Shown: in pieces, positions 5,199 through 31,816 of the stretch | How positions within the stretch are numbered: the first letter of the stretch is position 1 | Layout: each line of letters begins with the position of its first letter | Origin: Terriglobus saanensis SP1PR4 | GTDB taxonomy: Bacteria; Acidobacteriota; Terriglobia; Terriglobales; Acidobacteriaceae | Assembly (NCBI RefSeq): GCF_000179915.2 | Contig: NC_014963.1 | Span: 2,728,001 to 2,792,000 of the forward strand | DNA: 64,000 nt | Reading direction: 5' to 3' | Notes under the pieces: generated by a model | What the model saw: the letters and a program-made list of their open reading frames with translations, nothing else | Database searches by the model: none | What the model was told of the DNA's origin: nothing | Position numbers and translations under genes: made by a program

Positions 5199-5235
5199 GA
5201 AATCTTCCTTGAGATCAGAGATCGGAGGCTGTTCG

Positions 5236-5269
5236 CTCTGCATGAGCAGGGATCTCCCTTCATGCAGAG
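5236..5269 (-). promoter_or_regulatory. Intercistronic hairpin after the TonB receptor gene
   Basis: CTCTGCATGA (5236-5245) and TCATGCAGAG (5260-5269) are perfect 10-base complements, and inside them AGGGA (5248-5252) pairs with TCCCT (5255-5259). The hairpin starts 11 bases after the receptor stop codon. No run of T follows on the minus strand, so it looks like an mRNA-stabilising or attenuating element rather than a full terminator. Confidence 0.65.
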
Positions 5270-5280
5270 ATAGGTGTGGA

Positions 5281-8244
5281 TTAGAAGTGATAGCGCAGGC
5301 TGATCTGCGCCGAGCGCGGCTGTTGAATGTTCTGTAGTGAACCGAACGTGGCAGAGGAAGCATTATTGCCATTTACAAACTGCTGTCCGGACCCATTATT
5401 CGTAACGTTATAAAGATTAAAATCGGCTTCCACTTTCTGACTGTCCGTAATTCTGAACTCACGGCCTGCCAGAACATTCCACTGGATAAGCCAGGGGCAC
5501 CAGATCTGTCCAACACCGCGGTTCGTATACTTGAACCGGTACGGTGTCGCCAGCGGATTCGAGACTGTACGACCATTAATGGTGAGTGTCGATGGACCGT
5601 ACTGATTTACATAAGGAGTGCCAAGGGCTGTCAATGTTGTAATGACAGGTCCACCTGGTGTACCTGACTGCGCCGTCACAGTACTTGATAGTCGAACTCC
5701 CCACGGGGCACGGTAGGTCAAACCGGTGCGCGATTGATTGCGCTGCCACATGCGGTTGCGTGTATCGCCGGTCCAGTCGTTGGTCACATTGCCGCGGACG
5801 GAACCGAGTCCGGCATTGTTTGCGAACTTTGTCGGCTCAATAATTGCACTAGGATCGTTGGGCTGCCATGTGCCGCCAAAGTGATCGGGAGAATAAGTAT
5901 AGGTGCTGAAGAGCTGTAGCTTCTTTGTCTGCTTGCTCACAGTGACCTCGACTCCCTGGTAGACGAACCAGTTCCATTTGTTATTTGTGACGTAGTACGT
6001 ATTGTTGAGCGCGGGATTGACGAGACCGCTCCAGACTGTCCCGCTCGCGGTCGTAGTGTAGACCTGGTTTGTATCGATCTGGACAGGACGATCTCTGTAC
6101 TCTCTATCAATGTAGCTCGCGTCAATGACGACCCCACCCGGCAACTGCGTCCTGTAACCAATCAGCCACTCGCGCACGTAACCTTGATGGCGGTTCGGAT
6201 CGAAGGTTTTTCCGAGTGAACTCGAGGTGCTGGCTGGCGTGACGATTGTGTCGTAGACTGTTCCGTTCGAGTTGTAGTAGGTATCCGTTGTAGCTACCGT
6301 GCTTGTTGCGGCGGTCCCCAAGTAGCTGGCATTGGTGATGTCCGTGATCTTAGTCCAGCTCGCACGAACTACGTTCTTCTGATTCTTTGTAAGAACATAG
6401 GCGACTCCTACACGCGGAGCGTAATTCCAGGAGTGCTGGGTTGTGACCTTGAACTGCTCATCGCGTCCGGATATCCAGTCAGGACGAAGCCCTGCCGTGA
6501 TCGAGAGCCGCGCGATGGGATGCCAACGGTCCTGAATGTACCATGCGTAGTCATTGGCGCCAATGTAGCTGCTGAGGAAACTCGTCGTACCGCCAACCGA
6601 CTGTGTGTGGAAGATTGTGTAGCCCTGCGTAGGATCGTTGGGATTGTTGAGAGCGGCATCCTGCTGAATAATGCCGCCGTTATTGGCATAGTAGGTCGTG
6701 ACTTTACTTAGCTCATGCGGTTCCAAATAAAAGCCTGCACCGAGTTCATGGGTCCCCCACGCCTTGGGAACATAGTAGGTGACGTCGCCTGTCAGAGTCG
6801 GCTTGTCGGCCGGATTCACCGACACCGAAGATAGATTATTCAGCGTGGCGAGCGAAGCGCCCTGACCCGTATATTTTCCACCTCCGGAGGTATAAGTGAG
6901 ATAGATATCCTCCTGGGGCTTGCTGCCTACACCGCCGATGGCGCCGAGGCTGCTGTTCACACTCTTATTGTTGTAAGAAACGAGGAAACGAGTCGTCAGA
7001 CGTGACGTCCATTGCGAGATGAGACGAAGCCCGTAGGCACCCCCACCGTATTGGCTGTGAGCGATGTTTGCGGTGTACCACTGATAGTTCGCATCCTGCT
7101 TGCGGCTATCGTACTGAACAAGCGCAGTCAGCCTGTGCCGAGTGCCGAGTTGCACTGAACTGTTGCCGAGGAACACAAATCCACGAGACTCATTTGGGAA
7201 CGTACCGAAGCTGGAAGAGATCTCTCGGAGATACGCGTCCTGCGCAGCTGTCTGACTGATCCCGTCGTTGCGATGAATGTACCGTCCAGAAGCAAAGAAC
7301 CACGCGCGCTGCTTGACGATGGGACCGCCAAATGAGAAGTCGGGCTGTTCCGAAGCAGAAGCGGCTGCATTGCCGCCGGCTACGTTGTTTCCATTGAATG
7401 ACGCCGGGCCTATGAGATAGAGAAGAGAGCCATGATACTGGTCCGCACCGACAGGGCTCGCCAGATTGATGACCATGCCCATCGCGGCTGGCGACGAAGC
7501 ATCGTTGCCGCCTGTCTTGATCTGGATGTCGCCGAGAGATTCGTTGGCGATGCTGATGGTATTGGATGGCCAGTTCTGCACGAAGCTCCCGATGTCCATG
7601 CCATCGACGAGTGTGGCATGGTTTTCGTTCTCGGAGCCGCGGAGAAAATAAGTCTGGCCGCCTTGCGCGTCGCTCGAAGCACTGACGATGCCCGGTGTAA
7701 TCTGCAGGGAGTCCGACCAGTCGTGACGGCCCGTGACCGGGATGTTGCGCAACAGTTCTCCACTAAGATTGACCGCCTGCTCAGCGCTTTGCGTATCTAT
7801 CAAAGGCGCATCACCCGAGACTTCAACGGACTGCTGCTCGGAGCCGACTTTCAAAGGAACGTCGACCGCAACATTCAAACCCGCGCGGACGATCAAGCCC
7901 AGACGGATGAACTTCTCGAAGCCCGGAGCCTCGGCTTCGACCGTGTAATCCGTGCCCTGCGGCAGATCGGTCAGGCGGTAATTACCCTCCTGGTCGCTGA
8001 CAGCTTTGAATGTTCCACCAACGGCTGGGCTATGCGCCGTAATGCTAACCCCGGCGAGCACCGCACCCGAACCGTCGATGACACGACCATGGATTGTGCC
8101 ATCGGCGGATGTTTGTGCACAAAGTGGCGTTGCAGTTCCCGAGACAACGAGCAGAAGAAGCGAGAGAGCTATGAACATGATGCTTCGCACAAGCGAAGGG
8201 GTGAGTTGGCATTTTGCTAAATCAACTTGCTGTCGGGCAAACAT
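5281..8244 (-). CDS. TonB-dependent receptor with carboxypeptidase-regulatory-like domain
   Basis: 987 residues; ATG 8244 has a GGAG site (an internal ATG at 8178 has none). A long basic n-region leads into the hydrophobic MFIALSLLLLVVSG signal. Residues ~50-130 form the regulatory-like beta-sandwich (DGTIHGRVIDGSGAVLAG), followed by a plug (GSEQQSVEVSGDAPLI, LVDGMDIGS) and a 22-strand-type barrel that ends in aromatic ...SLRYHF, the usual outer-membrane C-terminus. These receptors import substrates across the outer membrane with TonB energy. The neighbours are two secreted peptidases in the same direction (M14 upstream, S9 downstream), so peptides or their fragments are the likely cargo; this is inference from context. 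Confidence 0.92.
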   Translation of the reverse strand: MFARQQVDLAKCQLTPSLVRSIMFIALSLLLLVVSGTATPLCAQTSADGTIHGRVIDGSGAVLAGVSITAHSPAVGGTFKAVSDQEGNYRLTDLPQGTDYTVEAEAPGFEKFIRLGLIVRAGLNVAVDVPLKVGSEQQSVEVSGDAPLIDTQSAEQAVNLSGELLRNIPVTGRHDWSDSLQITPGIVSASSDAQGGQTYFLRGSENENHATLVDGMDIGSFVQNWPSNTISIANESLGDIQIKTGGNDASSPAAMGMVINLASPVGADQYHGSLLYLIGPASFNGNNVAGGNAAASASEQPDFSFGGPIVKQRAWFFASGRYIHRNDGISQTAAQDAYLREISSSFGTFPNESRGFVFLGNSSVQLGTRHRLTALVQYDSRKQDANYQWYTANIAHSQYGGGAYGLRLISQWTSRLTTRFLVSYNNKSVNSSLGAIGGVGSKPQEDIYLTYTSGGGKYTGQGASLATLNNLSSVSVNPADKPTLTGDVTYYVPKAWGTHELGAGFYLEPHELSKVTTYYANNGGIIQQDAALNNPNDPTQGYTIFHTQSVGGTTSFLSSYIGANDYAWYIQDRWHPIARLSITAGLRPDWISGRDEQFKVTTQHSWNYAPRVGVAYVLTKNQKNVVRASWTKITDITNASYLGTAATSTVATTDTYYNSNGTVYDTIVTPASTSSSLGKTFDPNRHQGYVREWLIGYRTQLPGGVVIDASYIDREYRDRPVQIDTNQVYTTTASGTVWSGLVNPALNNTYYVTNNKWNWFVYQGVEVTVSKQTKKLQLFSTYTYSPDHFGGTWQPNDPSAIIEPTKFANNAGLGSVRGNVTNDWTGDTRNRMWQRNQSRTGLTYRAPWGVRLSSTVTAQSGTPGGPVITTLTALGTPYVNQYGPSTLTINGRTVSNPLATPYRFKYTNRGVGQIWCPWLIQWNVLAGREFRITDSQKVEADFNLYNVTNNGSGQQFVNGNNASSATFGSLQNIQQPRSAQISLRYHF

Positions 8245-8395: not shown

Positions 8396-11053
8396 CTAGT
8401 CACCTCCTTTGCGACCTGCGACTTCTGCAAGCGAGACACTCTTCGAACTGGAGTAGAGCAAGGAGTTGAAGAGGAACTTGTAAGTGACCTCAGACTGCGC
8501 GCGGTACTGTGGACGAAATCCGAAGAGCACGATACGGCCTTTGCCAACAGGCTCTTCCGCAATGGCTGCGGTGCCCTTGAGATATTTTCCGCCGAGGACC
8601 CAGCCACTGAGTAGTGGGTTGTCGCGCGTGTATGTGGCTACAGGGCGTGCGTCATTCGTAAGATTGAAACTAGGGCTGAGCTCGAAGAAGACTGGCACCG
8701 TTGGCGTAGAGCCGAAGGCGATCGGGTTGGAAGGGTCGACGGTTACTTCAAGAATAGAGCCCGGGATATAGAAGTCTTTGTTCGTAATGCCTTCAAGAGC
8801 ATTAGTGACCGCACCGGGATTTTTTGTAGCATAGACCTGTGATGCGCGGTTCAATGTCACAATGGTGCCGCCCGCTTCGGCAAATGCTTTAAGACCGGCT
8901 ATGCCTGCTTCGCCAAGCCCGCCACGGAACTCCGGAGGTATCTGCGGACCGCGCTCGGTCTCAGACGTCGCGGTACTTTGTAGGTTGCCGTTGCGCCTTG
9001 CTGCTCGCGCCGCTTGAGGCTCAGGGGCAGCGCCTTCTCCGCCGCCAAACCGACCAGTAGTGATAGCTCTGGGGGCGTTATCGGGAAGCACGATGACATC
9101 GAAGCGCTTATCGAGATCTCCCTTGCGGATGTCGGCGTCGACGACACGGGTGTAGGGGATGTTGTTCTGATCGAAGATCCAACGGGTCCAGCCTTCATCC
9201 ATGGATGCAACCCAGCTCTGATAAAGCGCAATGCGCGGCAGCCTAACCGATAAGGCAGTGCCTGTAGGCGCGCTGGTTGCAGGACGGATCTTTATAGGAA
9301 ACTTTTCAGCGAGTGCGGCCAAACGCTCATCGAGTCCTTTTTGACGAGGAATGTAGATGGTCCCTGGGCTTGTGCCTGGGCCGGTAAGGCGATAGGCACG
9401 CACGCCATCCTTGAGCAAGACGAAAAGCGCGTAGAGGCTACTGTTTGTCTCATCGTCGATGAGATAGCCCTTTGCGTTCGCTGTTTTTTCAAAGCGGCCG
9501 GGTGTAACCGTAGCCACCTCGACTTTGCGCGATGGAACGGAGAACTCTTTCTCGACGGGGGTTGCAGTTACGCCGAATAAGAGCGGCAGTGTCTGTGCGG
9601 TCACGTCGTACGGACGCTGGAGTGGGCCACCGGGGTATTCGGGAATATTGGGATACTTCTGAATCTCGAGGACGGTCTTGGCAAAGGCCCCATATGGTTG
9701 GGCAAGGTGAACGATATAGCTGCCGCTGGTGTAGTGCTTTCCATCCACGTCGAAGTCGGCAGTTGCTTGCTCGACTTCGTTATCGGCGATGCGAAGCGTG
9801 TTGATGAGGCGCGTGGTTGTGGCGGAATCGGTTTGCTCCGCAGGGATGATGTAGGCATAGGGGCCGGACTTGGAATGAACGGCGTGTTCGCCGATCTTGT
9901 AGTAGTTGCTGAGATAGCGCTCGCGATAAGTCGCGGCGTTGCTGGCGATCGAGAAGAAAGCGTCTATCTGGTATGCGACGATGTCGCCAAGTGTCCAGTG
10001 CCCGCCCTTCCAAGGGTCCGGGAAGTTCCAGGCCGCGACCTTTGCGTCATAGCCGATACCGCGGTCAAGTCGCTCGAAGGGGATATCGATCGGCGACGCG
10101 ATGTTTACGCTCGCGGACTCGGTGAGCACTCGCAAGCCGTTATGCAGAGCGATGTAGTCGCGCAGCGGCGACCAGAAGTCGTAGACGCCATGAACTAGGA
10201 CACCCTGCTTACCGGTGGCGGCAATGTCCAACGCTGTATTAGTTCCGAGAGCGTTCATGGAAGAGACGAGCAACGGGTCGACGTTTGGATCTATGGGATC
10301 GACCCACGGCGGTAAATAGATGCGCGGACCGTTCGAGCCCATCTGGTGGATATCGTAAAGAATCTGCGGATGCCAGGGATTAATGACCTTTTCAACGGCT
10401 AACCGCGTTTCGATCTGCGTGAAAGAACTCCAGTCGCGGTTGTCGTCGTGGCCCGTATAGTGCGCCCACAATACAACAGGGTTCGTTCCTTCATAGGGCG
10501 TACCGAGGTACTTCTTATACCAGTCGACCACTAGTTGCTGCCCATCGGGGTTGAGGGACGGAACAAGCACAATGATGACGTTGTTAAGGATCGACTGAAT
10601 CTCCAGCGTGTTTCCGGTGGCGAGCCGGTAGGCGAACTCGGTTGCGCTTTGCGAGCTGGCAATCTCGGTAGAGTGGATGTTGCATGTAACCACTAGCACC
10701 GTCTTGCCCTGCGTGATGAGCTCCTTTGCCTGCTCCTCCGTCGTGATGCGGGGGTCGGCGAGTCGAGCCTGAATCTGCTTGTACTTGTCAAGATGGGCGA
10801 TGTTATCCGCCGAGGAGATGGTAACTGCGATGAAGGGGCGACCCTCGGTAGTCTTGCCTATCTCCTCGGAGCGAATCCGGTCGGACTCTGTGCTGAGCTT
10901 CTTGAAGTATGCAGTCAGCTCCTTCCAGTCCGCGAGTTTGCGGTCTGTACCTGGCTTGAATCCAAAAGCAGCTTCCGGAGAAGTGACGGTTTGCTGGGCC
11001 GCGCTAGACCCTAAGCCGATCAGAAGAATAAGAAGGGATACAGCTCGTTTCAT
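8396..11053 (-). CDS. Secreted M14-family zinc carboxypeptidase
   Basis: 885 residues from ATG 11053 (GAGGAG site 4 bases upstream), with signal peptide MKRAVSLLILLIGLGSSAAQ. The M14 zinc ligands are visible: NIHSTEI gives His ~127 and Glu ~130, and the third His ~236 is in ILYDIHQMG. The substrate-binding region has NPDG and RDWSSFTQIET. The remaining ~500 residues continue as a second module with a glutamine-amidotransferase-like/beta-rich region near the C-terminus (RIALYQSWVASMDEGWTRW, AFAEAGGTIVTLN), a layout common in large acidobacterial and Bacteroidetes M14 proteins. It should trim C-terminal residues from peptides in the periplasm or outside. It is the first gene of a leftward block with a TonB receptor and an S9 peptidase (gap 151 bases). 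Confidence 0.9.
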   Translation of the reverse strand: MKRAVSLLILLIGLGSSAAQQTVTSPEAAFGFKPGTDRKLADWKELTAYFKKLSTESDRIRSEEIGKTTEGRPFIAVTISSADNIAHLDKYKQIQARLADPRITTEEQAKELITQGKTVLVVTCNIHSTEIASSQSATEFAYRLATGNTLEIQSILNNVIIVLVPSLNPDGQQLVVDWYKKYLGTPYEGTNPVVLWAHYTGHDDNRDWSSFTQIETRLAVEKVINPWHPQILYDIHQMGSNGPRIYLPPWVDPIDPNVDPLLVSSMNALGTNTALDIAATGKQGVLVHGVYDFWSPLRDYIALHNGLRVLTESASVNIASPIDIPFERLDRGIGYDAKVAAWNFPDPWKGGHWTLGDIVAYQIDAFFSIASNAATYRERYLSNYYKIGEHAVHSKSGPYAYIIPAEQTDSATTTRLINTLRIADNEVEQATADFDVDGKHYTSGSYIVHLAQPYGAFAKTVLEIQKYPNIPEYPGGPLQRPYDVTAQTLPLLFGVTATPVEKEFSVPSRKVEVATVTPGRFEKTANAKGYLIDDETNSSLYALFVLLKDGVRAYRLTGPGTSPGTIYIPRQKGLDERLAALAEKFPIKIRPATSAPTGTALSVRLPRIALYQSWVASMDEGWTRWIFDQNNIPYTRVVDADIRKGDLDKRFDVIVLPDNAPRAITTGRFGGGEGAAPEPQAARAARRNGNLQSTATSETERGPQIPPEFRGGLGEAGIAGLKAFAEAGGTIVTLNRASQVYATKNPGAVTNALEGITNKDFYIPGSILEVTVDPSNPIAFGSTPTVPVFFELSPSFNLTNDARPVATYTRDNPLLSGWVLGGKYLKGTAAIAEEPVGKGRIVLFGFRPQYRAQSEVTYKFLFNSLLYSSSKSVSLAEVAGRKGGD

Positions 11054-11484
11054 AAACTCCTCAAACACAATCAATCAGTTGGAAAACGGATCGACAGCTC
11101 TCTTCTTCCACAACACACAATAGGGTGCGGCATAAGATGAGCCCGAGCAATCAGTCTGAATAATGAGAAATTAGTCTTGGGGGGATGACACTAGGAGCGA
11201 ACGGGCATGAAGCAACAACAGAGCGCGAGGCAATGGCGACGGTCTGCGAAATGGATGGTGTTCCTCATGCGTAGCCTCATAATACACAAGGAATAACCTA
11301 AGTGAATAAATCGCCTGCAAAAAATTGCGCCCCGTGAACCAGACGGCTCCGGACAAGTCGCGAGACTTGAAGCCGAATCCGCCCTATGTGTCCAAGGGCA
11401 GGCACATGAATCGGCTTTGCGCAGTTCGATCTAAATAGAGAAGGCGCCAAAGCGCTTCTTATCCCGCCTAACTCGACCTACGTT
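11054..11484. other. Intergenic region, no gene recognised
   Basis: About 430 bases between the M14 gene and ribokinase, both leftward. It must hold the promoter of the M14 block and the end of the ribokinase transcript. Two or three peptide-sized open frames (about 30 codons, one with a G-rich stretch before its ATG near 11184) have no recognisable content. An imperfect hairpin lies at its right end. Confidence 0.5.
11438..11460 (-). terminator. Possible terminator after ribokinase
   Basis: On the minus strand GAAGCGC-TTTG-GCGCCTTC forms a short stem with one bulged base, followed by TCTATTT. It is 25 bases after the ribokinase stop. The stem is imperfect and the T run short, so this is tentative. 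Confidence 0.35.
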
Positions 11485-12405
11485 TTATCCCACCAGCATT
11501 CTGTTGACATCTGCGAGCTTAGGCATTGAAGGCTGTGCTCCTGTCTTTGAAACTGAAACTGCAGCTACTGCATTCGCGAATCGTGCCGCTTCGATCGGTT
11601 CCATGCCGTCACTTAGACCATAGGCAAAACCACCATTAAAGGCGTCCCCTGCGGCCGTGGTATCCACCACCTCGACAGGAAATGCTGGGAGGTACGTCGT
11701 TTCCATCGCCTCTCCAGCTAGAAAAACGCCTCTAGATCCCATTTTCAAGATGACGTTCCGAACGCCGGTATCTAAAAGGTGTTGTGCGGCAACTGCTGGC
11801 TCAAAATTTGGATTCCCACGTAATCCCTGAAGCAGAATCTGTGTCTCACTCTCATTCGGTGTAAGCCAAGTCACGTTGCGCAACAGTGTCGGCGGCAATT
11901 CGCGCGCTGGAGCAGGATCGAGCATGAACGGAACGCCAAACTCCCTGGCCAATTCGGCGAGTCGTTCCACCGTAGGGAGCGGTATCTCCAGTTGCGACAG
12001 GATGAGAGAAGCGCTCCGAAGCTCATCAAGGTAGAGATCCAGATCGGCTGGTTGCAGTGAATCATTCGCACCAGGAATGACCACGATCGAGTTGTCCCCA
12101 GCAGGGGTGACCATGACTACAGCGGAGCCAGAGGGACCAGGTACGCTCTCAACACAGTGCCTTGAAACACCGGCAGAGCTCAACTCATCGAGAAGTTGCG
12201 TTGCAAAGAGATCTTCTCCAACACGGCCTATCATCACCACATTGCCACCAAGCCTGGCGGCGCCGACAGCCTGATTCGCTCCTTTACCGCCAGGATATGT
12301 GGCAAAACTTTGTCCCGTGATGGTCTCTCCCGAAACAGGCATCCGCGGCACGAAGGCCACGAGATCGAGATTGATACTGCCAACGACAACAATTTTCTTC
12401 TTCAT
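11485..12405 (-). CDS. rbsK: Ribokinase
   Basis: 306 residues, the usual ribokinase length, with ATG preceded by GGAGAAT. PfkB/ribokinase signatures are intact: IVVVGSINLDLV at the N-terminus, PGGKGANQA at ~39-47 (first PfkB signature) and DTTAAGDAFNGGFAYG from ~248, where Asp ~254 is the catalytic base and AAGD forms the anion hole. It phosphorylates D-ribose to ribose-5-phosphate in the cytoplasm using ATP. It is the last gene of a leftward operon behind a GRP-type sugar transporter (31-base gap) and a TonB receptor, which fits uptake and activation of ribose or a closely related pentose. Other PfkB substrates such as 2-deoxyribose are possible. Confidence 0.9.
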   Translation of the reverse strand: MKKKIVVVGSINLDLVAFVPRMPVSGETITGQSFATYPGGKGANQAVGAARLGGNVVMIGRVGEDLFATQLLDELSSAGVSRHCVESVPGPSGSAVVMVTPAGDNSIVVIPGANDSLQPADLDLYLDELRSASLILSQLEIPLPTVERLAELAREFGVPFMLDPAPARELPPTLLRNVTWLTPNESETQILLQGLRGNPNFEPAVAAQHLLDTGVRNVILKMGSRGVFLAGEAMETTYLPAFPVEVVDTTAAGDAFNGGFAYGLSDGMEPIEAARFANAVAAVSVSKTGAQPSMPKLADVNRMLVG

Positions 12406-12436: not shown

Positions 12437-13429
12437 CTAGCGGGGGATGAGAGGAGCAACGGCAATTGCGCCGAGTCCCGTTAGAAAGAAGAAAAACATC
12501 CAGGGAATAAGTCGCTTTGAAGTGGCAGGAGCCGAGGCAAACTCTTTCCAGATCACAACACCCCAAAAGGCAGAGATCATCGTTGCGCCCTGTCCGATAG
12601 CGTAAGAAACGGCTGGTCCAACGGCACCCGCGCGTGCTGCTACAAAGCTGGCCACTGCGCCGGTGCACCATACCAAACCGCCAACCATTCCCCAGAAGTG
12701 CCACGACTTGCACGCAACTCGATATTCGGAAAATGCAACAGCACTCTCCCCTGTGAGCGAGTGCTTCATGAGCCACGCATTGAGTGGCAGAGAACAGAGA
12801 GCAACACCGACGGCGAAAACAAATGCGACCGCATAGGGCCCAAGAGAGCCTGTCCCGATGCTCGAGCGTGCCACGAAGGGATAGAAGCTTCCCATCAATA
12901 CGCCACTCACCACACTCAAAACCACGCCTCGCTTACTAATTGCCTTGCCCGCTTCACGCCTTTTATAGGCGAGAGCATCCAGCACAATTGCAACCGCAAC
13001 CAAAGCAACTCCGCCAAAGATCAGAAGCGGATTGCTTGTAGGTTGAATGAGGTAATTCAACACAACACCCACAATGAGTGCGAGGCCGATACCAACCGGA
13101 AACGCGACGGCCATTCCTGCGATGTCAATGGCGGCTACTAAGAGGAGGTTCGCGATGTTGAAAATCACTCCACCTAGAATTGCGAACAGAACGTGAGAAT
13201 GGTCGGCTGAGCGCAGGTTCTGCAGGAACGACGCCGGCCCACCGTATATGCTGCCGAGTGTGAAGCCCCAGACAAGGCTACCGAGTACGATGCCAATCAC
13301 GTAATCCCAATAGAAAAGCGAGAACGCATAGCCCATGGTGAGCTTGCGCGTATTTGCCCAGGATCCCCAGCACAGCATGCTGGCAATCATGAGCAGTAGA
13401 GCGATCCAATACGCTTCTGGTTGATACAA
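12437..13429 (-). CDS. GRP/DMT-family sugar transporter (RbsU/GlcU/RhaT-like)
   Basis: 330 residues if translation starts at TTG 13429, which has an AGAGG site 6 bases upstream and gives MYQPEAYWIALLL..., a typical start for this family. An upstream frame to 13507 would add 26 residues without membrane character. The protein is a ten-helix DMT-type permease: MLCWGSWANTRK in helix 1 is highly characteristic of the glucose/ribose porter group, and paired helices follow to the C-terminus (FFFLTGLGAIAVAPLIPR). It would carry sugar over the inner membrane, probably with protons. Its position between a TonB receptor and ribokinase suggests ribose as substrate; that is inferred, not seen. Confidence 0.85.
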   Translation of the reverse strand: MYQPEAYWIALLLMIASMLCWGSWANTRKLTMGYAFSLFYWDYVIGIVLGSLVWGFTLGSIYGGPASFLQNLRSADHSHVLFAILGGVIFNIANLLLVAAIDIAGMAVAFPVGIGLALIVGVVLNYLIQPTSNPLLIFGGVALVAVAIVLDALAYKRREAGKAISKRGVVLSVVSGVLMGSFYPFVARSSIGTGSLGPYAVAFVFAVGVALCSLPLNAWLMKHSLTGESAVAFSEYRVACKSWHFWGMVGGLVWCTGAVASFVAARAGAVGPAVSYAIGQGATMISAFWGVVIWKEFASAPATSKRLIPWMFFFFLTGLGAIAVAPLIPR

Positions 13430-13497
13430 CAGACACCTCTTGGCATGAATACATACTTGCACTTGAACGAAAAGATAGTGGATGCGCAATCCTCCAA

Positions 13498-13525
13498 GAG
13501 AGGCCACCGCATCAGGCAGCCTCTC
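13498..13525 (-). promoter_or_regulatory. Intercistronic hairpin after the TonB receptor gene
   Basis: GAGAGGC (13498-13504) pairs with GCCTCTC (13519-13525), with further pairing inside (CACC/GGC). It begins 12 bases after the receptor stop codon, and no T run follows on the minus strand. Its position matches the hairpin at 5236-5269 behind another receptor gene. Confidence 0.55.
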
Positions 13526-13536
13526 CTCGAAGATTG

Positions 13537-16500
13537 TCAGAATCGGATGTGTCCTACAAGCTGAATCTGACGTGGCATATACTGGCCTGTTGACTGGCCA
13601 AAGGTTGAGTTTGTGAGATCTCCGGTAGGCTGTGAGAGATTGACTCGATTGAAGGCATTCAGGAACTCTCCACGCAACTCCAATTTACCTGCGTCCCCCA
13701 GGAACCTGAGGTTAAAGGCACGCTGTATGGCCACGTTCACACTTACGAAACCCGGTCCGTTATACACATTGCGCCCGAGGTTCCCTTCCCGACCAGCCGC
13801 GGGCTTGCCGAAGTCGGATGCTTTGAATACGCCCTTCAGGAAAGCCGATCGATCTGCATTGAGGGACCGGCCGAAAGTTGGGGCATTCGGCACGTCATAT
13901 CCGTAGCCGTCCGCGTTATAGTCGCCGCCACTTGCATAGGTTGCAGACGTATAGACGTTGAACGGTCTGCCAGATTGCAGAATCACAATCGGAGAGAGAG
14001 TGAAGCCGCTCGTTACCGTGTGAAGCAATCCATTGCCCGCACTTGGAATGTTCCACACGGCGTCTGCGGAAAGCCGATGACGCGTGTCGTAATCGGATCG
14101 GGCATACTGCCGCTCTGGATGCTGGGCATCGAAGATGGCTTGGCCTCCGCCCACTCCATTGTCGTTGCTGCTGGTGTAGTCAAGGGATTTTCCGTACGTA
14201 TAGGTCGTATGCATCGTCCATCCCCGCGAGAAGCTTCGCGAAACGCCAAATGCACCAAGGTTAGAGTTTGCAATTCCTGCGTTGTTTCCATACGTCACAG
14301 CATTGAAGCTGGTGTTGAGTCGCGTCGAGCTACCTGCATGCGCAATGTAGTCTCCTGCATATCGATTTACATCAGTTTGCAGGTAGAGATCGGTACTCGA
14401 CGTGCCAAGATAATCGGCTTCAAAGACAAAGCCTTTGATCGCACGCTGCACGCCAAGTGCCCAACTATGCACCAGCGGAGGACGCAGGTTCGGATCGATA
14501 CCACCGACAGCAGTGCGCGTTCCTACCAGGCCGCCATGGGCGTCGGCGGTATAGCTGATTCCGGGTGGCGGAGCGAAGCCCTGCGCGCCTGAGTTGCTTG
14601 TGCCATAAGAGAAGTTTGCGAGCGTGACCCCGGCATTAAAGATGCTCAGAGCCGGATTTGCATACCCAGGAGGGTTAGTGCGCATGTTATTCACATAGGC
14701 ATACTCGCCCACTTTATTGCTGAAAAGACCATAGCCACCATGGGCAGAGGTCTTTCCATCTCCGAAGACGTCCCATGCGAATCCGATCCTGGGTGCGAAT
14801 CGGTATTGTGCATTGATCGTTGCTGCGCCGCTAGCGTTACGCGTCTGCATGCTTCCGTTCGCGATCTGGTCGGCGACGGTAGCTCCGGCTCCAGGCGTAA
14901 AGAAGGCGACGTTGTTCCTTCCATTCTGCACGGTCGACAAACGACCAAAATAGTCCATGCGCACTCCCAGATTCAGAGTGAAACGAGAGGTGATCTTCCA
15001 GTCTTCTTGAACGTAGGGCGCAAGATAAAGCATCATCACACGTTGGTAAAGGTTATGCGCCGTCGTATGTGTCGCCAGATCGACAACGGGGCCACCTTGA
15101 TAAAAAGGATGATCCGCCGCAAAATCCAGAACATTCAGAAAATAGAAGAAGGGTCGAACAAGTCCATTGGTAAAGTCATCCAGATCCTGCTGCCGGTCCA
15201 CATCGATGCCAAAGTGCAGGCTATGCTTTCCGCGCGTGTAGGAGATGTTGTCCTGGTAGATAAAGTTGTTCTGTGTCCAGCTTGATGGGCCCCACTGTGA
15301 AAAGGTGTCCGTAATGCCGCCAATGTAATAAATGTTTGGAAGCGATGGGATCTTATCTGGTTGATTTCCTGTGTTGCGGGTAAGGCTGACACCGATTTCA
15401 TTCACAAGCCGCGATGAGAATGTGTGCAGGTAATCGAACTTCGCATAGAGAGTCGCATTGGGATTGATGTAGGAATAAACGGGACGGCCATCCGCGGACT
15501 CTCCTTCCGTTGTATTGCGAAACATGCTGAAGAAGACCTTGTCATTGCCCTGGCGCATGTTGTGGTCGAGTCGAAGATGACCCTGAAAGCCATTGCTGAT
15601 CGGAGAAACATTGATCGTCGCAGTGCCCATAGCAACAAGATCGTTCGGGATCGCCGGTGCCGCGTAGCTGCTTCCATAGGCGGTCTTTACCTGGCCAACG
15701 GTGAGGAAGTTCGAGGTTGGCGCATTCTTAGGAGGCGCTTTACTCAAAAACTGCGCACCGAGTGTCGTAGGAAAATTAGTAGTCACGTAATTAGTGAACG
15801 CTGGCGTCTCTACGTTCACAATGCGCGTGCTGCCTAAAATCGAACGAAGCCAAAAGAGCGATCCAAAGAAGAACGTCTTGTCCTTCCAGACAGGTCCGCC
15901 AACCGTGCCACCGAAATCATTTCGATTGTACTTCGGAACGTCTTTCTGAAATTCAGTTCGAGAGGTCAGCGTCTTGTCCGTGTGGAACTCTGAAATCATG
16001 CCGTGAAAGCGGTTCGTTCCAGGCTTGGTAAAAAGCTCGATGAGCGCGCCACTCTGGCGCCCCTTCTCCGCAGAGAAGGTAGAAGCCGTCACCTTCATCT
16101 CCTGGATTGTCTCGGGTTCTGGAGTGATGTTGACTACGCCATCCCGCGAATTGCCATTCACAACCGTACCATCCACCTGGTATTCGTTCGTTTCCTGGCG
16201 CTGTCCGGCCGCATTGATCTGGAAACCAGATTCCGCGCTGAAGCTATTCGTACCAACCGAGCCCGCGGCAGATATATTTCCGGAGGCGTCTCCAAGTCCC
16301 GTTACGCCGGGCGCCAGTGTGGCGACAGAAGCATAAACGTTCTGCCCCACCATGGCCGACTCTTTCATCGTCTCGGTTTCAAGCGTGCGGCCGATGTTGC
16401 CCTTTGTTGTCTCGACCATTTCAGCCTGTGCAGTCACATCGACCGTCATGCTCTGCTCGCCGATCGCCAGTTTCGGATAGATCGTACGTACGTCGTGGCC

Positions 16501-16806
16501 TTCAATGGAAACGTCTTTCTGCTGCCAGGTTTTGAAGCCGCTTGCGTGAACCTCCGCACGATACTTGCCGGGGCCGAGTTGGAGGATGTGGACGTAGCCT
16601 TGTCCATCGGCAGTTGCCCTTTGGGCGACTTGCGTTCCCTGGTTGACGAAGATCAACTCCGCTCCTGGAACAGCCGCACCCGTGGAATCGACGACAGTGG
16701 CTTCCACGCCACTGGCGAACTGTGCCAAAGCCCTGGAAGGAAAGCACGTGCTTAAGATGACCAAAAGGGAGAGCAGGTAGAACCTAATTCTGTTTATGTT
16801 GGACAC
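13537..16806 (-). CDS. TonB-dependent receptor of the putative ribose locus
   Basis: 1089 residues from GTG 16806, chosen because GGGGAGG stands 6 bases before it; the farther in-frame TTG at 16821 lies upstream of that site. Signal peptide VSNINRIRFYLLSLLVILSTCFPSRALAQ. A carboxypeptidase-regulatory-like domain follows (GVEATVVDSTGAAVPGAEL), then the plug (TVDVTAQAEMVE, EYQVDGTVVNGNSRDG) and a long barrel ending with QLVGHIRF. It imports a substrate across the outer membrane. It heads the operon receptor-transporter-ribokinase and has a TTGACA/TACTAT promoter with a LacI-type operator just after the expected start of transcription, so it is very probably sugar-induced through the LacI regulator at 19330. 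Confidence 0.92.
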   Translation of the reverse strand: MSNINRIRFYLLSLLVILSTCFPSRALAQFASGVEATVVDSTGAAVPGAELIFVNQGTQVAQRATADGQGYVHILQLGPGKYRAEVHASGFKTWQQKDVSIEGHDVRTIYPKLAIGEQSMTVDVTAQAEMVETTKGNIGRTLETETMKESAMVGQNVYASVATLAPGVTGLGDASGNISAAGSVGTNSFSAESGFQINAAGQRQETNEYQVDGTVVNGNSRDGVVNITPEPETIQEMKVTASTFSAEKGRQSGALIELFTKPGTNRFHGMISEFHTDKTLTSRTEFQKDVPKYNRNDFGGTVGGPVWKDKTFFFGSLFWLRSILGSTRIVNVETPAFTNYVTTNFPTTLGAQFLSKAPPKNAPTSNFLTVGQVKTAYGSSYAAPAIPNDLVAMGTATINVSPISNGFQGHLRLDHNMRQGNDKVFFSMFRNTTEGESADGRPVYSYINPNATLYAKFDYLHTFSSRLVNEIGVSLTRNTGNQPDKIPSLPNIYYIGGITDTFSQWGPSSWTQNNFIYQDNISYTRGKHSLHFGIDVDRQQDLDDFTNGLVRPFFYFLNVLDFAADHPFYQGGPVVDLATHTTAHNLYQRVMMLYLAPYVQEDWKITSRFTLNLGVRMDYFGRLSTVQNGRNNVAFFTPGAGATVADQIANGSMQTRNASGAATINAQYRFAPRIGFAWDVFGDGKTSAHGGYGLFSNKVGEYAYVNNMRTNPPGYANPALSIFNAGVTLANFSYGTSNSGAQGFAPPPGISYTADAHGGLVGTRTAVGGIDPNLRPPLVHSWALGVQRAIKGFVFEADYLGTSSTDLYLQTDVNRYAGDYIAHAGSSTRLNTSFNAVTYGNNAGIANSNLGAFGVSRSFSRGWTMHTTYTYGKSLDYTSSNDNGVGGGQAIFDAQHPERQYARSDYDTRHRLSADAVWNIPSAGNGLLHTVTSGFTLSPIVILQSGRPFNVYTSATYASGGDYNADGYGYDVPNAPTFGRSLNADRSAFLKGVFKASDFGKPAAGREGNLGRNVYNGPGFVSVNVAIQRAFNLRFLGDAGKLELRGEFLNAFNRVNLSQPTGDLTNSTFGQSTGQYMPRQIQLVGHIRF

Positions 16807-16862
16807 TGAAAACCTCCCCAATAAAGGGAACTGAGATGTCAGCCGACCTAAGGCTTGGCTGT

Positions 16863-16876
16863 TTGAATCGTTTCAA
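16863..16876. promoter_or_regulatory. LacI-family operator
   Basis: TTGAATCGTTTCAA has perfect 5-base arms (TTGAA/TTCAA) around a central CG, the classical LacI/GalR-family half-site arrangement. It lies between the divergent receptor and FGE-fusion genes, about 10-23 bases downstream of the transcription start expected from the promoter at 16892-16921, where a bound repressor would block the leftward operon. The LacI gene of the same locus is 2.5 kb away. Confidence 0.75.
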
Positions 16877-17148: not shown

Positions 17149-19320
17149 ATGGGATTTCGCTGTCTTCTTCAACTCGTGGCGCTTGCCTCAGCCTCCGTTT
17201 CCGTGTCGGCATTCGCGCAGGACGCCAATGTCCAGATGCAGGGTGAGCAGATCGCCGGGCCAACATGCGCGGGCCTTCCCCAATGGTTTATGCACTCTGC
17301 ACCTCGGCCCTGTACTACGGAAGAAGTGCGCACGTGGATCAAGGACGTTCGTCACTGGCGCATAGAACGAAAGATCCGTGTCGGCATGGACGACACCGAG
17401 TACAAGCGCCCCGACCTGCTGTGGACACAGTCCAGCTTTGTGCAGCCGCAGATGATGGTGCACGATCGCTTTTTCTACGATCCAAAGACCCGTCATTACT
17501 CGGTAGACCGTTACCTCGAAGATGCGAATGCGCGCTATGGAGGCATCGATAGCGTTCTGGTGTGGCCGACGTATCCAAACATCGGCGTCGATGATCGCAA
17601 CCAGTACGATCTCGTTCGCGATATGCCCGGCGGGTTGGAAGGCGTCAAGAGTTTTGTGGATGCCTTTCACCAGAAGGGCGTGCGCGTTCTCTTTCCGACC
17701 ATGTTGTGGGACCAGGGAACGCACGTTGAGGGAACAGCCGATGCGGAAGCTCTTTCCAAGGAACTGGTGTCAGTCGGGGCTGATGGTATCAACGGAGACA
17801 CCCTGCAGGGCGTGCCGCGTTCGTTTCGCGATGCCTCCGATTCACTTCATCATCCACTCGCACTCGAACCGGAGCTTGGCCCAGGTTCGGATGAGATGTT
17901 GAACTACAACAACATGACCTGGGGTTACTGGAAGTACGAATTTGTGCCGTCAGTCAGCCGGTACAAATGGCTCGAACCTCGTCATTTGGTGCATATCTCG
18001 AACCGCTGGGCACACAATCATGTGGACGATCTGCAATCCGCTTTCTTCAACGGAACTGGCTTCGAATCGTGGGAAAACGTCTGGGGCATCTGGAACCAGA
18101 TGACGCCGCGCGACGCAGAGGCCTTGCGTCGCATCTCCATCATCGAGCACGCCTACAGCAAGCTACTCGTATCGCAGGATTGGGAACCGCACACGCCGAC
18201 ACAGCAGTACGGAGTCTTTGCCAGCAAATGGCCGAGCGACACTGCAACGTTATGGACCATCGTCAATCGGAACATGTATCCCGTAGGCGGATCAGAACTG
18301 ACGCTTCCCTTCCGTGAAAACACGCGTTACTACGATCTTTGGAACGGCGTGGAGTTAACGCCGCAGAAGAACGGCGAAAAGATAACACTGGCCTTCTCCA
18401 TCGAAGCGAATGGCTATGGTGTAATTCTGGCGACCAGCGAACATGCAGAGGATCTGACATCGCTCTTGAAAAAGATGCAGACGCTCAGTCGCAAACCTTT
18501 GAGCTCCTACTCCGATCAATGGACGACCCTCCCCCAGCAGATGATTGCGATTGCAAAAACCAAAACGGTCTCACAAAAGCCTGACAGAATGTCGCACATT
18601 CCAGCGACCGACTTTCTCTTCCGCGTCAACGGCATCGAGATTGAAGGAACCAACGACGAAGGAGTGGACGTGCAATATGCAGGCGAAACTTCAGCACGGC
18701 GCTACCACGAGAACCAGGTTAAAATCGCTTCTTTCTGGATCGATACCTATCCCGTCACCAATGCTGAGTTCAAAAAATTCGTCGACGCAACAAAGTATCG
18801 CCCCGCAGACGACCACAATTTTCTCAAGGACTGGACACACAACTCCTTCCCTCCAGGGTGGGAGAACAAGCCGGTCACCTGGGTTTCGATCGAAGATGCA
18901 CGCGCTTATGCCAGCTGGGCTGGCAAACGCCTTCCACATGAGTGGGAATGGCAGTATGCAGCGCAGGGGAACGACGGAAGAACGTATCCCTGGGGGAATG
19001 ATTGGATCCGCGACAATATGCCTGCAACAGATAACGGTCGCACGTTGCTGCCCCCAAGCGATGTGGGCGCCCATCCACAGGCAGCGAGCCCATTCGGAGT
19101 GCAAGACCTCATTGGGAATGTATGGCAGTGGACCGACGAGTACGTAGACACACACACACGCGCGGCCATTTTGCGAGGCGGAAGCCACTATCAGCCGCAG
19201 GGTTCCCGGTGGTATTTCCCGCAGGCGTATAAGCTGTCAGAACACGGCAAATATCTGCTGATGGCGCCGAGCTTGGACAGGTCTGGCACGATTGGCTTCC
19301 GCTGTGTGCTGGATGAATAA
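17149..19320 (+). CDS. Secreted TIM-barrel glycosidase-like protein fused to a cysteine-less FGE-sulfatase domain
   Basis: 723 residues from ATG 17149 (GAGG 6 bases upstream; the 28 codons before it are not signal-like). Signal peptide to SAFAQ. Residues ~30-480 look like a (beta/alpha)8 glycosidase-type domain: strand-like segments with acidic ends such as IDSVLVWPTY, GVRVLFPTMLWDQGTH, VGADGINGDTLQG, then a beta-sandwich-like tail (NTRYYDLWNGVELTP). I cannot name its glycosidase family. Residues ~485-722 are a formylglycine-generating-enzyme-type (SUMF1/EgtB) domain: FWIDTYPVTNAEFKKFV, PVTWVSIEDARAYASWAGKRLPHE, YPWGND, GNVWQWTDEY, RGGS, GFRC. The cysteine pair used for catalysis in true FGE is absent from the segment after RGGS, so this half is unlikely to make formylglycine and may bind sugar. 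It is divergent from the receptor operon and 9 bases ahead of lacI. Confidence 0.8.
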   Translation: MGFRCLLQLVALASASVSVSAFAQDANVQMQGEQIAGPTCAGLPQWFMHSAPRPCTTEEVRTWIKDVRHWRIERKIRVGMDDTEYKRPDLLWTQSSFVQPQMMVHDRFFYDPKTRHYSVDRYLEDANARYGGIDSVLVWPTYPNIGVDDRNQYDLVRDMPGGLEGVKSFVDAFHQKGVRVLFPTMLWDQGTHVEGTADAEALSKELVSVGADGINGDTLQGVPRSFRDASDSLHHPLALEPELGPGSDEMLNYNNMTWGYWKYEFVPSVSRYKWLEPRHLVHISNRWAHNHVDDLQSAFFNGTGFESWENVWGIWNQMTPRDAEALRRISIIEHAYSKLLVSQDWEPHTPTQQYGVFASKWPSDTATLWTIVNRNMYPVGGSELTLPFRENTRYYDLWNGVELTPQKNGEKITLAFSIEANGYGVILATSEHAEDLTSLLKKMQTLSRKPLSSYSDQWTTLPQQMIAIAKTKTVSQKPDRMSHIPATDFLFRVNGIEIEGTNDEGVDVQYAGETSARRYHENQVKIASFWIDTYPVTNAEFKKFVDATKYRPADDHNFLKDWTHNSFPPGWENKPVTWVSIEDARAYASWAGKRLPHEWEWQYAAQGNDGRTYPWGNDWIRDNMPATDNGRTLLPPSDVGAHPQAASPFGVQDLIGNVWQWTDEYVDTHTRAAILRGGSHYQPQGSRWYFPQAYKLSEHGKYLLMAPSLDRSGTIGFRCVLDE

Positions 19321-19329
19321 GACGCACGC

Positions 19330-20355
19330 ATGAAACCTCAAAATAAGAAAAATCCGCCACTCGAACGAGCAACGATGCATGACATCGCCTCACGGGCAGA
19401 CGTCTCGCTCGGTACGGTTTCGCATGTCATCAATGGGACCGCACCGGTGCGCGATGTCCTCAAGAAGCGTGTACTGCAGGCAATCGACGATCTTGGTTAT
19501 CAGCCCAATCACCTCTCCCGAGGCCTGCGTCGCAACCAAACCAACCTGATCGGCATGATCATCCCGGACATTATGAATCCGTTCTTTCCTTCGGTAGTTC
19601 GGGGGGTCGAAGACATGGCATACAAGGCGTCATATCGCCTTTTGCTATGCAACGCCGACAACGACGTTCAGAAGGAGACGGCCTATCTGAATGATCTCCG
19701 ATCGTTTCTCCCCGCGGGCATTATCCTCATTCCTTCGCTCGATCATAAGATCGCTTCCCAGGGAGCAGGGCCGCCGGTTGTATGTATGGATCGCGTGCCC
19801 AAAGGATGGAAGGGCGACAGCGTAACCGTAGCCAACGAGGCAGGCGGTCACGCGGCAGCGGAACACTTGATAGAGATGGGGCACAAGATCATCGGTATTG
19901 TGCGTGGCCCATCGAATGTTGTTACGGCCGAAGAGCGCGTGACCGGATTCGTGAAAGCGATGAAGGCAGCCAGGCTTTCGATTTCGCCTGAATACATTCA
20001 GGAAGGCCAGTTTGATCGCGAGAGCGGATACACCTGCACGCTCCGTCTTTTGAATATGCTGCCTCGCCCCACAGCCATCTTCACTGCAAGCGATCTAATG
20101 GCGACCGGGGCGCTCGCGGCGATCAAGGCAAGCAAACTGAAGTGTCCCGACGATATTTCAATTGTAAGTTTCGACGGCCTGGCCTTCACCGAACTCACCG
20201 AACCAGCATTGACAAGCATCTTCCAGCCCAGCTACCAGCTTGGTTATACGGCCGCTCGTCTCCTGCTGGACAGAATCAATGGCGAGGACTTCCCTCCTCA
20301 GAACGTGATGCTTGATACAGAACTTAAGATCAGAGACTCTGTTCGGCGAATTTAG
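19330..20355 (+). CDS. LacI-family transcriptional regulator
   Basis: 341 residues, a full-length LacI/GalR protein. The helix-turn-helix is at ~15-40 (TMHDIASRADVSLGTVSHVINGTAPV region), followed by the hinge helix (YQPNHLSRGLRR) and a periplasmic-binding-protein-like effector domain (LIGMIIPDIMNPFF, GYTAARLLLDRI). It starts 9 bases after the FGE-fusion stop, without a clear ribosome site, so translational coupling is likely. It probably represses the divergent receptor-transporter-ribokinase operon through the TTGAANCGNTTCAA site at 16863 and releases it when a sugar (ribose or a derivative) binds. The assignment of operator and effector is inference from position. Confidence 0.9.
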   Translation: MKPQNKKNPPLERATMHDIASRADVSLGTVSHVINGTAPVRDVLKKRVLQAIDDLGYQPNHLSRGLRRNQTNLIGMIIPDIMNPFFPSVVRGVEDMAYKASYRLLLCNADNDVQKETAYLNDLRSFLPAGIILIPSLDHKIASQGAGPPVVCMDRVPKGWKGDSVTVANEAGGHAAAEHLIEMGHKIIGIVRGPSNVVTAEERVTGFVKAMKAARLSISPEYIQEGQFDRESGYTCTLRLLNMLPRPTAIFTASDLMATGALAAIKASKLKCPDDISIVSFDGLAFTELTEPALTSIFQPSYQLGYTAARLLLDRINGEDFPPQNVMLDTELKIRDSVRRI

Positions 20356-30088: not shown

Positions 30089-31816
30089 TCACCGAACAGC
30101 CTCTCTTTTCGTCTGCTGCTGAGGTATCCCGGAGGAAAGAGCCTTTTGTGCAGCGTCGATCTTTAGCGCCCATGCCGGATGCTCGAAAGTAATCTGTCGC
30201 GCGTAGATTAGGGATTCCTTCGTATTCAAAGCGATAAGCTGATCGACGTATTGCTGCAGTGAGAGTTTGCTCCAAGGCGATACTGTACGCTGATCCGGTG
30301 TGGAGAAATACCACTTACCGAATCGTGTCCACGGATCGTCCCTTTGTGACGCAAGCAAATCGTCGCGCATTTTTTCTATCTTGGAAAGATCGGGTGTGGC
30401 GGACTGAGAAAAGCGCGAACGGCTGGCTGTAAACTCAGCTAAATCGGCAAGCCACACCGGCGCGGGATCGCTCGGAGGCATGTCTAGAATTTCGGCCGTA
30501 TTGCCGTCGGTGACCAGCAACGAGGAATCCGTGGGGCTAAACTCGGCTCCATTCTTATTGCTGTTGTAGTGAATGGGTAACATTGTGGCTTCCCCCGTTA
30601 CGGCACTCCATATCCGCATCGACTGGTCTCGTCCACGAGTAAAAACGAGCGACGCATCACCACTGAAGCCGCCGTCTATAAGCGGCGCATTGTGTTGTAG
30701 TAAAGGTGTAAGAGCGCTGCCCGTGCGCGCATCCCACACGCGAGCTGTGTGATCGTGCGAGATGGTCAAAATATGTGTGGCATCCGGGCTGAACTCTGCG
30801 TCGCTAATGGGACCAGTCTGCGTGAAGTCTCTTCCCTGCTGCGCACCAGTATTGGCATCCCAGATCTTCGCAGTGTGATCTCCCGAACTGGTCAGCACAA
30901 ACCGACTGTCGGGGCTAAATGTCGCGCTGAAGATTGCATTACCATGCACCATACGATGCAGGCGTTTGCCGGTCATTGGATCCAGAAGCTCGGCAAAGTC
31001 ATCATCCGTTCCAATCAGCGCGTGCTTTCCGTCATTGCTCAAAGCAACAACATTTACGTCGTCGTGATATGTGAGCTTCGGCGAGAGAACTTCGCCAGTC
31101 ACAGCATCCAACAGATAGACTTCTCCCCCCGCGCTGCCTAACACTCGCTTGCCATCCGGGCTGAGCGCAATATGTGAGAGAGGCTTCACCGTGTGGAATG
31201 GAAGATGCAGGGGCTGACCGCTGCTTGCACCCCATAGATGAACCGTCCCATCGTTCAAGCTGGCAACAACACGATGCCCGTCGGCACTCCACGCAACGGC
31301 AACGACCTCATTATCGTGATGCATCAGCCCAGCCGTTTGCTCGCCTGTATGCGCATCCCAGACGCTCAACGTATTGTCATCAAGTACGGTCAGGATCCGA
31401 GCGCCATCTGCGCTGAATTTGGCTCCAATGAAGTTCGCAGTGACACAACACAGTCTGATGTGGATGTTCTGACGTTGCTCGGCGATGAGTTGAAACGCGA
31501 GGGATGCCGCGGGATTACCCTCACGCTGCGCACGAAGACTTGCCGCAGCCTCCCTAAGTGCCTCGTGTTTGATTCCATCTGTTGCAAACCTAAGGGCCAG
31601 CAGATAATGGATGTATGCGGCCTGTGACTGACCTGGGCCGTCGGCGGAAGAGGCCGCTTTAGCCGCAGTCGAAGTGAGGGGCATGAAGGTGCCTCTCGCA
31701 TGTTCTTGAGGCATCGCTTGAGACACGGCAACCCCGAAGGCAATGAGGCATGCGGTCGCGATGAGAGTACGGCGGTGTGGTCTCTCGTGGGAGGCTGACA
31801 GAAAGTTTTTTTTCAT
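30089..31816 (-). CDS. Secreted WD40-repeat protein
   Basis: 575 residues; ATG with AAGGAC upstream. The N-terminus has a Tat-like or long Sec signal (RPHRRTLIATACLIAFGVAVSQA). A helical segment (~60-115, QAAYIHYLLALRFATDG...) resembles the hinge found before propellers in large kinase-linked WD40 proteins. Residues ~125-445 hold about seven WD40 blades with the usual endings (NTLSVWDAHTGE, TVHLWGASSGQ, TAKIWDANTG, TARVWDARTG, SMRIWSAVTGE). The C-terminal ~120 residues are helical and unknown. It is probably an extracytoplasmic protein-binding scaffold; it stands alone between a terminator and the malectin-protein gene. Confidence 0.85.
   Translation of the reverse strand: MKKNFLSASHERPHRRTLIATACLIAFGVAVSQAMPQEHARGTFMPLTSTAAKAASSADGPGQSQAAYIHYLLALRFATDGIKHEALREAAASLRAQREGNPAASLAFQLIAEQRQNIHIRLCCVTANFIGAKFSADGARILTVLDDNTLSVWDAHTGEQTAGLMHHDNEVVAVAWSADGHRVVASLNDGTVHLWGASSGQPLHLPFHTVKPLSHIALSPDGKRVLGSAGGEVYLLDAVTGEVLSPKLTYHDDVNVVALSNDGKHALIGTDDDFAELLDPMTGKRLHRMVHGNAIFSATFSPDSRFVLTSSGDHTAKIWDANTGAQQGRDFTQTGPISDAEFSPDATHILTISHDHTARVWDARTGSALTPLLQHNAPLIDGGFSGDASLVFTRGRDQSMRIWSAVTGEATMLPIHYNSNKNGAEFSPTDSSLLVTDGNTAEILDMPPSDPAPVWLADLAEFTASRSRFSQSATPDLSKIEKMRDDLLASQRDDPWTRFGKWYFSTPDQRTVSPWSKLSLQQYVDQLIALNTKESLIYARQITFEHPAWALKIDAAQKALSSGIPQQQTKREAVR

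Follow-up and report, generated by a model that had tools for sequence, protein, structure and literature searches.

A barrel-FGE-fold fusion protein of Terriglobus saanensis is a probable exported glycosidase of a ribose-scavenging locus

The gene described here joins a glycosidase-like barrel to a domain with the fold of formylglycine-generating enzymes (FGEs), and its product is probably a retaining glycosidase that is exported, carries a non-oxidizing FGE-fold module, and belongs to a ribose-scavenging locus. It lies in a window of 64,000 nucleotides of the Terriglobus saanensis SP1PR4 genome, the whole stretch of DNA that was analyzed. Judged from sequence, the identity as a glycosidase is well supported, and ribose as the target sugar is moderately supported; catalysis, the retaining mechanism, the ribose product, the anomer and the aglycone are predictions. 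The alpha linkage is a guess by analogy, based on the specificity of enzymes of the GH13 type for 1,2-cis linkages and on neighboring proteins with an ADP-ribosylglycohydrolase domain. A sequence-only reading of this DNA had noted an FGE-like domain without catalytic cysteines, fused to a secreted barrel of no recognizable family, and had proposed a new carbohydrate-binding or catalytic use of the fold. The observation was borne out and the interpretation was upheld in part: a binding use of the FGE-fold domain is plausible, and a new catalytic use of the fold received no support in this analysis.

The open reading frame was as first read, running on the + strand from the ATG at 17149 to the end of the stop codon at 19320 and encoding 723 amino acids; the frame stays open in the 5' direction as far as an ATG at 17065. 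Residues 1 to 24 (17149 to 17220, +) form a probable signal peptide, identified by eye from a hydrophobic stretch that ends in SVSAFA and is followed by QDA, and the predicted model has a helix at residues 2 to 24. The protein is probably exported to the periplasm, in agreement with the secreted barrel half proposed earlier. Structure prediction and fold comparison, which had been suggested as a check, gave a confident AlphaFold2 model (70 sequences; mean pLDDT, 93.0; pTM, 0.90) with a GH13/GH129-like barrel, then a beta-sandwich, and then an FGE fold at the C terminus. By the model and structural alignment, the (beta/alpha)8 barrel spans residues ~64 to 335 (17338 to 18153, +), and its predicted strands 1 to 8 are residues 98-103, 135-139, 179-184, 213-216, 238-241, 256-259, 280-283, and 304-308. 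The beta-sandwich of the model follows 3' of the barrel (residues ~346 to 430; 18184 to 18438, +). The FGE-fold domain, of the C-type-lectin type, covers residues 476 to 723 (18574 to 19317, +) by Pfam and structural alignment.

Conservation was judged from an alignment of 109 distinct sequences that were chosen as complete, the window's included, comprising 97 of a short class and 12 of a long class. Rows were left out when they repeated the window's own gene (L001 and L003), were a stand-alone FGE (L002), duplicated other loci (L147 to L149, the same genes as L037 to L039), or were identical to rows that were kept (L043, L050, L080, L092, L094, L101, L110, and L115). Incomplete, broken, or insert-bearing rows (L021, L040, L053, L055, L076, L085, L087, L095, L097, and L104) and the broken L157, a long-class gene split into two frames, were also left out. 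Nine of the dropped incomplete loci were checked: seven run off their contigs, L053 has an insert and then, without a change of frame, the FGE part, and in L055 the FGE part lies in another frame. The end of the FGE domain was kept in all 109 rows, themselves chosen as complete (GFR in 108 and GVR in 1), and a chance fusion or a misassembly was rejected as the origin of the gene.

The fusion was found in Acidobacteriota, Bacteroidota, Verrucomicrobiota, and Alphaproteobacteria. Within Acidobacteriaceae, 44 of 150 genomes had a match, a count that includes the T. saanensis genome and a few fragments. In samples of whole phyla, each including its centre genome, matches were found in 11 of 199 Acidobacteriota genomes, 11 of 296 genomes for the Bacteroidales locus (mostly of the long class), 10 of 240 for the Opitutaceae locus (five of them DUF6259-like), and 4 of 299 for Asticcacaulis. 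One scan of named public genomes, many of whose records are metagenome assembled, gave at least 495 barrel relatives among the 593 candidate stretches listed, and 79 loci were kept. Among 72,556 plasmid records, two carried the fusion, from Sphingopyxis and Spirosoma, and both copies are annotated as a SUMF1/EgtB/PvdO family nonheme iron enzyme.

The long class (~930 amino acids) has an additional N-terminal beta domain. Its model was weaker (pLDDT, 77.5), with a poor FGE part; the first Foldseek match was a Flavonifractor galactosaminidase, and the matches listed included GH97, GH101, GH31-type, and alpha-galactosidase structures with low TM-scores. No ribokinase was found at the 13 long-class loci. 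Three of these loci (L150, L151, and L154) adjoin GH127, DUF2961, and MGH1-like glycosidase genes, which suggests that the long class is aimed at a different target.

In the window, a receptor, a permease, and a ribokinase lie on one side of the fusion gene, and a LacI-family gene lies on the other. An Oar-like TonB-dependent receptor (13537 to 16821, -; PF25183, E 1e-129; PF13620) is divergent from the fusion gene. Beyond it are a Ureide_permease/RhaT-GlcU type sugar permease (12437 to 13507, -; PF07168, E 4.5e-15; TIGR00776, E 8.8e-8, below the cut-off) and a ribokinase (11485 to 12405, -), which scored 322.7 bits for TIGR02152 against a cut-off of 299.65 and is matched over its length by PDB ribokinases. 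Directly 3' of the fusion gene is the LacI-family regulator (19330 to 20355, +; PF00356 and PF13377), whose best NCBIfam matches are PurR, CytR, and RbsR, all below the cut-off. In the proposed pathway, the TonB-dependent receptor would import a ribose-bearing glycoside or oligosaccharide across the outer membrane and the barrel would cleave it, with D217 as the nucleophile and E242 as the acid/base. The permease would then take up D-ribose, the ribokinase would yield ribose-5-phosphate, and the LacI protein would control the divergent cluster.

The linkage to ribokinase recurred in the family. Of 44 Acidobacteriaceae loci, namely the matches over 1000 bases in the 150 genomes, 25 had a ribokinase (TIGR02152, E ≤ 1e-60) no more than 10 kb away (27 of 49 when all matches are taken), versus ~0.25 expected by random placement in 4.7-Mb genomes. 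Of the 43 genomes that carry the fusion, 40 also had a ribokinase, versus 47 of the 106 that lack it (Fisher p 1.1e-8; own genome excluded, relatedness uncorrected); both the linkage and the co-occurrence statistics ignore genome kinship and incompleteness. As a control, FGE genes that stand alone were located in these genomes, and 4 of 42 lay within 10 kb of a ribokinase, by a ribokinase list trimmed by hand to the contigs that could matter (25/44 versus 4/42, Fisher p 3.1e-6). Three of these four genes sit on contigs that also carry the fusion locus. Separately, at G101:C5:1615037-1616953 an FGE-like gene directly adjoins a ribokinase, in a genome that gave no match in the barrel search for fusion genes.

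Neighborhoods were also counted with a simple longest-ORF caller, so that the counts are lower bounds; the caller took antisense frames over the fusion gene in L070, L083, and L110 and missed the ribokinase of G083. Among the 79 named loci, many of which have only short flanks, a ribokinase was counted at 24, a permease at 25, a receptor at 25, a LacI gene at 26, and a cluster of ADP_ribosyl_GH proteins at 11. None of these five kinds of gene was found within 8 kb at 32 of the 79 loci; among the 39 loci flanked by 5 kb or more on each side, 12 had none. From the 49 family matches, 20 were selected for having enough contig around them, and of these a ribokinase was found at 15, a permease at 12, a receptor at 16, and a LacI gene at 11. 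Two Bacteroidota loci (L118 and L160) have SusC/SusD, ribokinase, permease, and ADP_ribosyl_GH genes near the fusion gene, and the order on the Sphingopyxis plasmid is TonB receptor, ribokinase, fusion, GH127. A nucleoside hydrolase gene adjoins the fusion gene in L083, and RpiB is encoded in L109.

ADP_ribosyl_GH-domain proteins recur beside the fusion gene, at L109:11558-13273, at L118:12939-14492, and at nine further loci of the same cluster; the total of 11 of 79 was obtained by clustering, and two of the 11 were tested by Pfam. These neighbors may act on the same ribosides. The rus locus of Bacteroides thetaiotaomicron (BT2803-2809) also encodes ribokinases, SusC/D, and an ADP-ribosylglycohydrolase-like protein. 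A published account describes rus as a regulated locus that is needed for growth to draw on ribose and names RusT as its proposed ribose transporter (PMC12596196). Compared at the level of the locus, rus is the nearest functional parallel to the fusion locus.

A LacI-operator-like palindrome, TTGAATCGTTTCAA, lies in the divergent promoter region (16863 to 16876), ~40 bases from where the receptor gene starts. No other site in the window matches the CG-centred pattern perfectly; with two mismatches allowed, there were three sites versus 0.94 expected, an unremarkable count. Across the 79 loci (1.05 Mb), the consensus occurred nine times, and seven of the nine sites lay in the regions upstream of cluster genes, regions that account for 7% of the sequence, with a p of 2.6e-7 that is optimistic because the pattern was picked after some sites had been viewed. 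All nine sites were in LacI-bearing loci; 8 of 26 such loci had a site and 18 had none. Searching the promoter region for inverted repeats in general gave nothing useful, and a stricter 16-base search missed the window site.

Ribose is not the only sugar to be considered. The protein might instead be a glycosidase for other sugars, such as arabinofuranosides or a mixed furanoside polysaccharide, with the ribokinase locus as one of several contexts. Such a reading draws on the GH127 beta-L-arabinofuranosidase genes that neighbor the fusion in L054, on the Sphingopyxis plasmid, and in long-class L150 and L154, on the DUF2961 gene adjoining a long-class gene, and on the 19 of 44 family loci with no ribokinase nearby. 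We consider it unlikely, although worth weighing, because ribokinase linkage was ~100-fold over random placement, ribokinase co-occurred in 40 of 43 genomes, and the only gene above the TIGR02152 cut-off in the 5.1-Mb window genome is the one beside the fusion. The 19 family loci lacking a ribokinase within 10 kb, together with the 32 named loci lacking cluster genes, mean that other substrates or unlinked arrangements are possible. In a more specific form of the ribose assignment, which we put forward tentatively and hold to be somewhat less probable than not, the fusion would found a new GH family of D-ribofuranosidases on a GH13/GH129-like barrel, with the cysteine-less FGE-type C-type-lectin domain completing the substrate site.

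The assignment as a glycosidase of the ribose locus depends on the barrel, which the earlier reading could not place in a family. This was also our experience: the N-terminal half had no Pfam match at E ≤ 10 and no NCBIfam match, and nothing convincing was found among PDB sequences, where a single-sequence search gave one chance-level match (E 2.4) and a 15-sequence profile gave none. A placement by fold came from Foldseek searches and structural alignments with VIA-align. Model residues 64 to 430 aligned with alpha-amylase II/neopullulanase structures of GH13 (1jf5; Z 19.5; rmsd, 3.6 Å; 333 residues; 11% identity), and with the GH129 3,6-anhydro-D-galactosidase 5opq (Z 19.4; rmsd, 3.9 Å; 328 residues; 15% identity). 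Because the two Z values are tied, the fold does not name the nearest family; for GH129/GH101, the fold match to 5opq was accompanied by no sequence match in Pfam or in the PDB profile search. The predicted barrel fold resembles that of the retaining alpha-glycosidases of GH13 and GH129/GH101, whereas identity in the structural alignments is only ~10 to 15% and no Pfam glycosidase model matches. A GH13-like barrel is reported for a GH101 enzyme, and the catalytic domains of GH129 and GH101 are described as alike (PMC8106489).

Two acidic residues of the barrel stand out. D217 (codon 17797 to 17799, +), the predicted nucleophile, lies directly after strand 4 and is conserved in 109 of 109 rows; E242 (codon 17872 to 17874, +), the predicted acid/base, lies directly after strand 5 and is conserved in 108 of 109, with L027 as the exception. 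Both codons were checked. GH13 enzymes have an Asp nucleophile after strand 4 and a Glu acid/base after strand 5, and D217 and E242 agree with this placement, by position and conservation only. Region II of GH13 has the motif D-G-x-R-x-D, in which the Arg is invariant. Its counterpart in the window protein is D212-G-I-N215-G-D217, so that the Arg position is replaced, by Asn in all 97 short-class rows and by Val or Ile in all 12 long-class rows. The missing region II arginine rules out membership in GH13. Position 285, after strand 7, also has no fixed acid (Asp in 58, Asn in 15, Gly in 12, and Arg in 5 of the 97 short-class rows; Asn in the window), and with the region II arginine absent, the mechanism may differ from that of GH13.

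Remote relatives, recognized by profile, were DUF6259 (PF19773) proteins. When the barrel profile was run over the 240 genomes of the phylum of the Opitutaceae locus, five of the 10 matches, including that of the centre genome, were strong (E < 1e-160) and five were weak (best E, 2e-28 to 9e-13), and by Pfam the weak five are DUF6259 proteins. Alignment of the barrel set with these five in hhalign gave a probability of 99.85% (E 1.4e-30, 328 columns), and D217 and E242 aligned with an Asp and a Glu that are invariant in the five sequences. The barrels are thus homologous and have the same Asp and Glu, but neither the barrel of the window protein nor the N-terminal portion of a long-class relative was matched by the Pfam DUF6259 model at E ≤ 10, and no FGE domain was seen in the five DUF6259 stretches scanned, not all of which are a full frame. 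Profile-profile homology without a direct Pfam match makes the barrel a separate family inside the wider DUF6259 group, and it looks like a distant relation of DUF6259 within the alpha-glycosidase superfamily that has yet to be classified. No paper naming DUF6259 was found in a full-text literature search.

A barrel of this type need not be an enzyme. The CD98 heavy chain, with a degenerate barrel, was one of the structures matched in fold by the long-class model, and the absence of the GH13 arginine could likewise suggest a noncatalytic sugar sensor or transport partner. This is improbable for a barrel that has kept D217 in 109 of 109 rows and E242 in 108 of 109 and has both in common with DUF6259 proteins.

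For the C-terminal half, PF03781 (FGE-sulfatase) was the sole Pfam match in the 723-residue protein, at residues 517 to 720 (E 2.4e-37; 129.4 bits versus a gathering cut-off of 23.3). Six FGE-like NCBIfam models also matched, with their best stretches all within residues 516 to 677 and all below the cut-off. Model residues 476 to 723 aligned with CalU17, SUMF2, and FGE at Z 20 to 22, so that, as first noted, the fold is well kept apart from the cysteines. The catalytic cysteines of FGE form a C-x4-C pair after RGGS. In the window protein the corresponding segment, residues 676 to 716 (RGGSHYQPQ...TIG; 19174 to 19296, +), is free of cysteine, and only C719 of GFRC follows. The same was true of the family: C-x4-C occurred in this segment in 0 of 109 distinct sequences (97 short class and 12 long class, the window's included), any Cys in 3 of 109. 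Positions 682 and 687, paired by eye with the cysteines of an FGE from the same genome, are Gln682 and Arg687 in the window protein and never Cys in the 109 rows. C719 was kept in 106 of 109 rows, and W688 and Y689, within the segment, in all 109. Since the pair is absent from all 109 aligned sequences, the loss is old and fixed and not a recent decay.

The fusion thus has the C-terminal fold of FGE and SUMF2 but lacks the Cys pair of FGE and has a barrel attached. SUMF2 (pFGE), a known FGE-fold protein without the catalytic cysteines, headed the matches of the fusion protein both among PDB sequences and in Foldseek; because it shows the same loss, such loss is not rare within the fold. A DinB domain is the hallmark of EgtB sulfoxide synthases. 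No DinB match was found in the Pfam scan, and the score for EgtB was 63.9 bits versus an NCBIfam equivalog cut-off of 360. The missing Cys pair and the missing DinB domain rule out an active FGE or EgtB-like enzyme. A broader reading, in which the FGE-fold domain is itself a nonheme iron or copper oxidase and the barrel holds its substrate, appeals to the fold common to FGE, EgtB, and PvdO, the subthreshold NCBIfam similarity, and the public annotation as a SUMF1/EgtB/PvdO family nonheme iron enzyme, but it is highly improbable given the absent Cys pair in 109 sequences, the absent DinB partner in the Pfam scan, NCBIfam matches far below the cut-off, and a separate FGE-like gene (L124) elsewhere in the T. 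saanensis genome that does carry C-x4-C.

Instead, we infer that the FGE-fold domain of the proposed glycosidase is a binding or scaffold module; it would be non-oxidizing and would help to shape or cap the substrate site. The C-type-lectin fold has been described as a general ligand-binding motif that is sometimes enzymatic, as in FGE (PMC5006420), which would make a binding role for the domain reasonable. Stand-alone FGE genes with C-x4-C also occur at L174 (369 amino acids) and L175 (362 amino acids), beside the receptor in the fusion-gene cluster.

The barrel has a known glycosidase fold but forms a family not yet classified, the fusion is stable and unusual, and what is new is more the barrel and the gene context than the Cys loss. 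Full-text literature searches gave no description of the barrel-FGE fusion among the matches listed and no paper that combines ribofuranosidase with a glycoside hydrolase family; the ribosidase papers among the matches listed describe no ribofuranosidase family, judged by their titles. The name given in the two plasmid records, nonheme iron enzyme, is taken from the C-terminal domain and misdirects users of a protein that is widespread in soil bacteria. If ribose is released, the protein would be a carbohydrate-active enzyme for ribofuranosides, and the locus would offer a route, open to testing, by which soil ribose bound in nucleosides, ADP-ribosylated material, or bacterial polysaccharides could be recycled. 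A D-ribofuranosidase family, if real, would provide soil bacteria with an exo-enzyme for ribose-containing glycans, and if the glycosidase reading is true, the fusion shows that the FGE fold has been stably reused for breaking down carbohydrates.

Other genes of the window were also recorded. The 892-residue protein encoded at 8396 to 11074 (-) has an M14 zinc carboxypeptidase match at residues 54 to 217 only, with no Pfam match at E ≤ 0.001 in the remainder. The listed open reading frames at 3204 to 5372 (prolyl-oligopeptidase-like) and 5281 to 8244 (TonB-receptor-like), both on the - strand, overlap by 92 bases in different frames, and a 575-residue WD40 beta-propeller protein is encoded at 30089 to 31816 (-).
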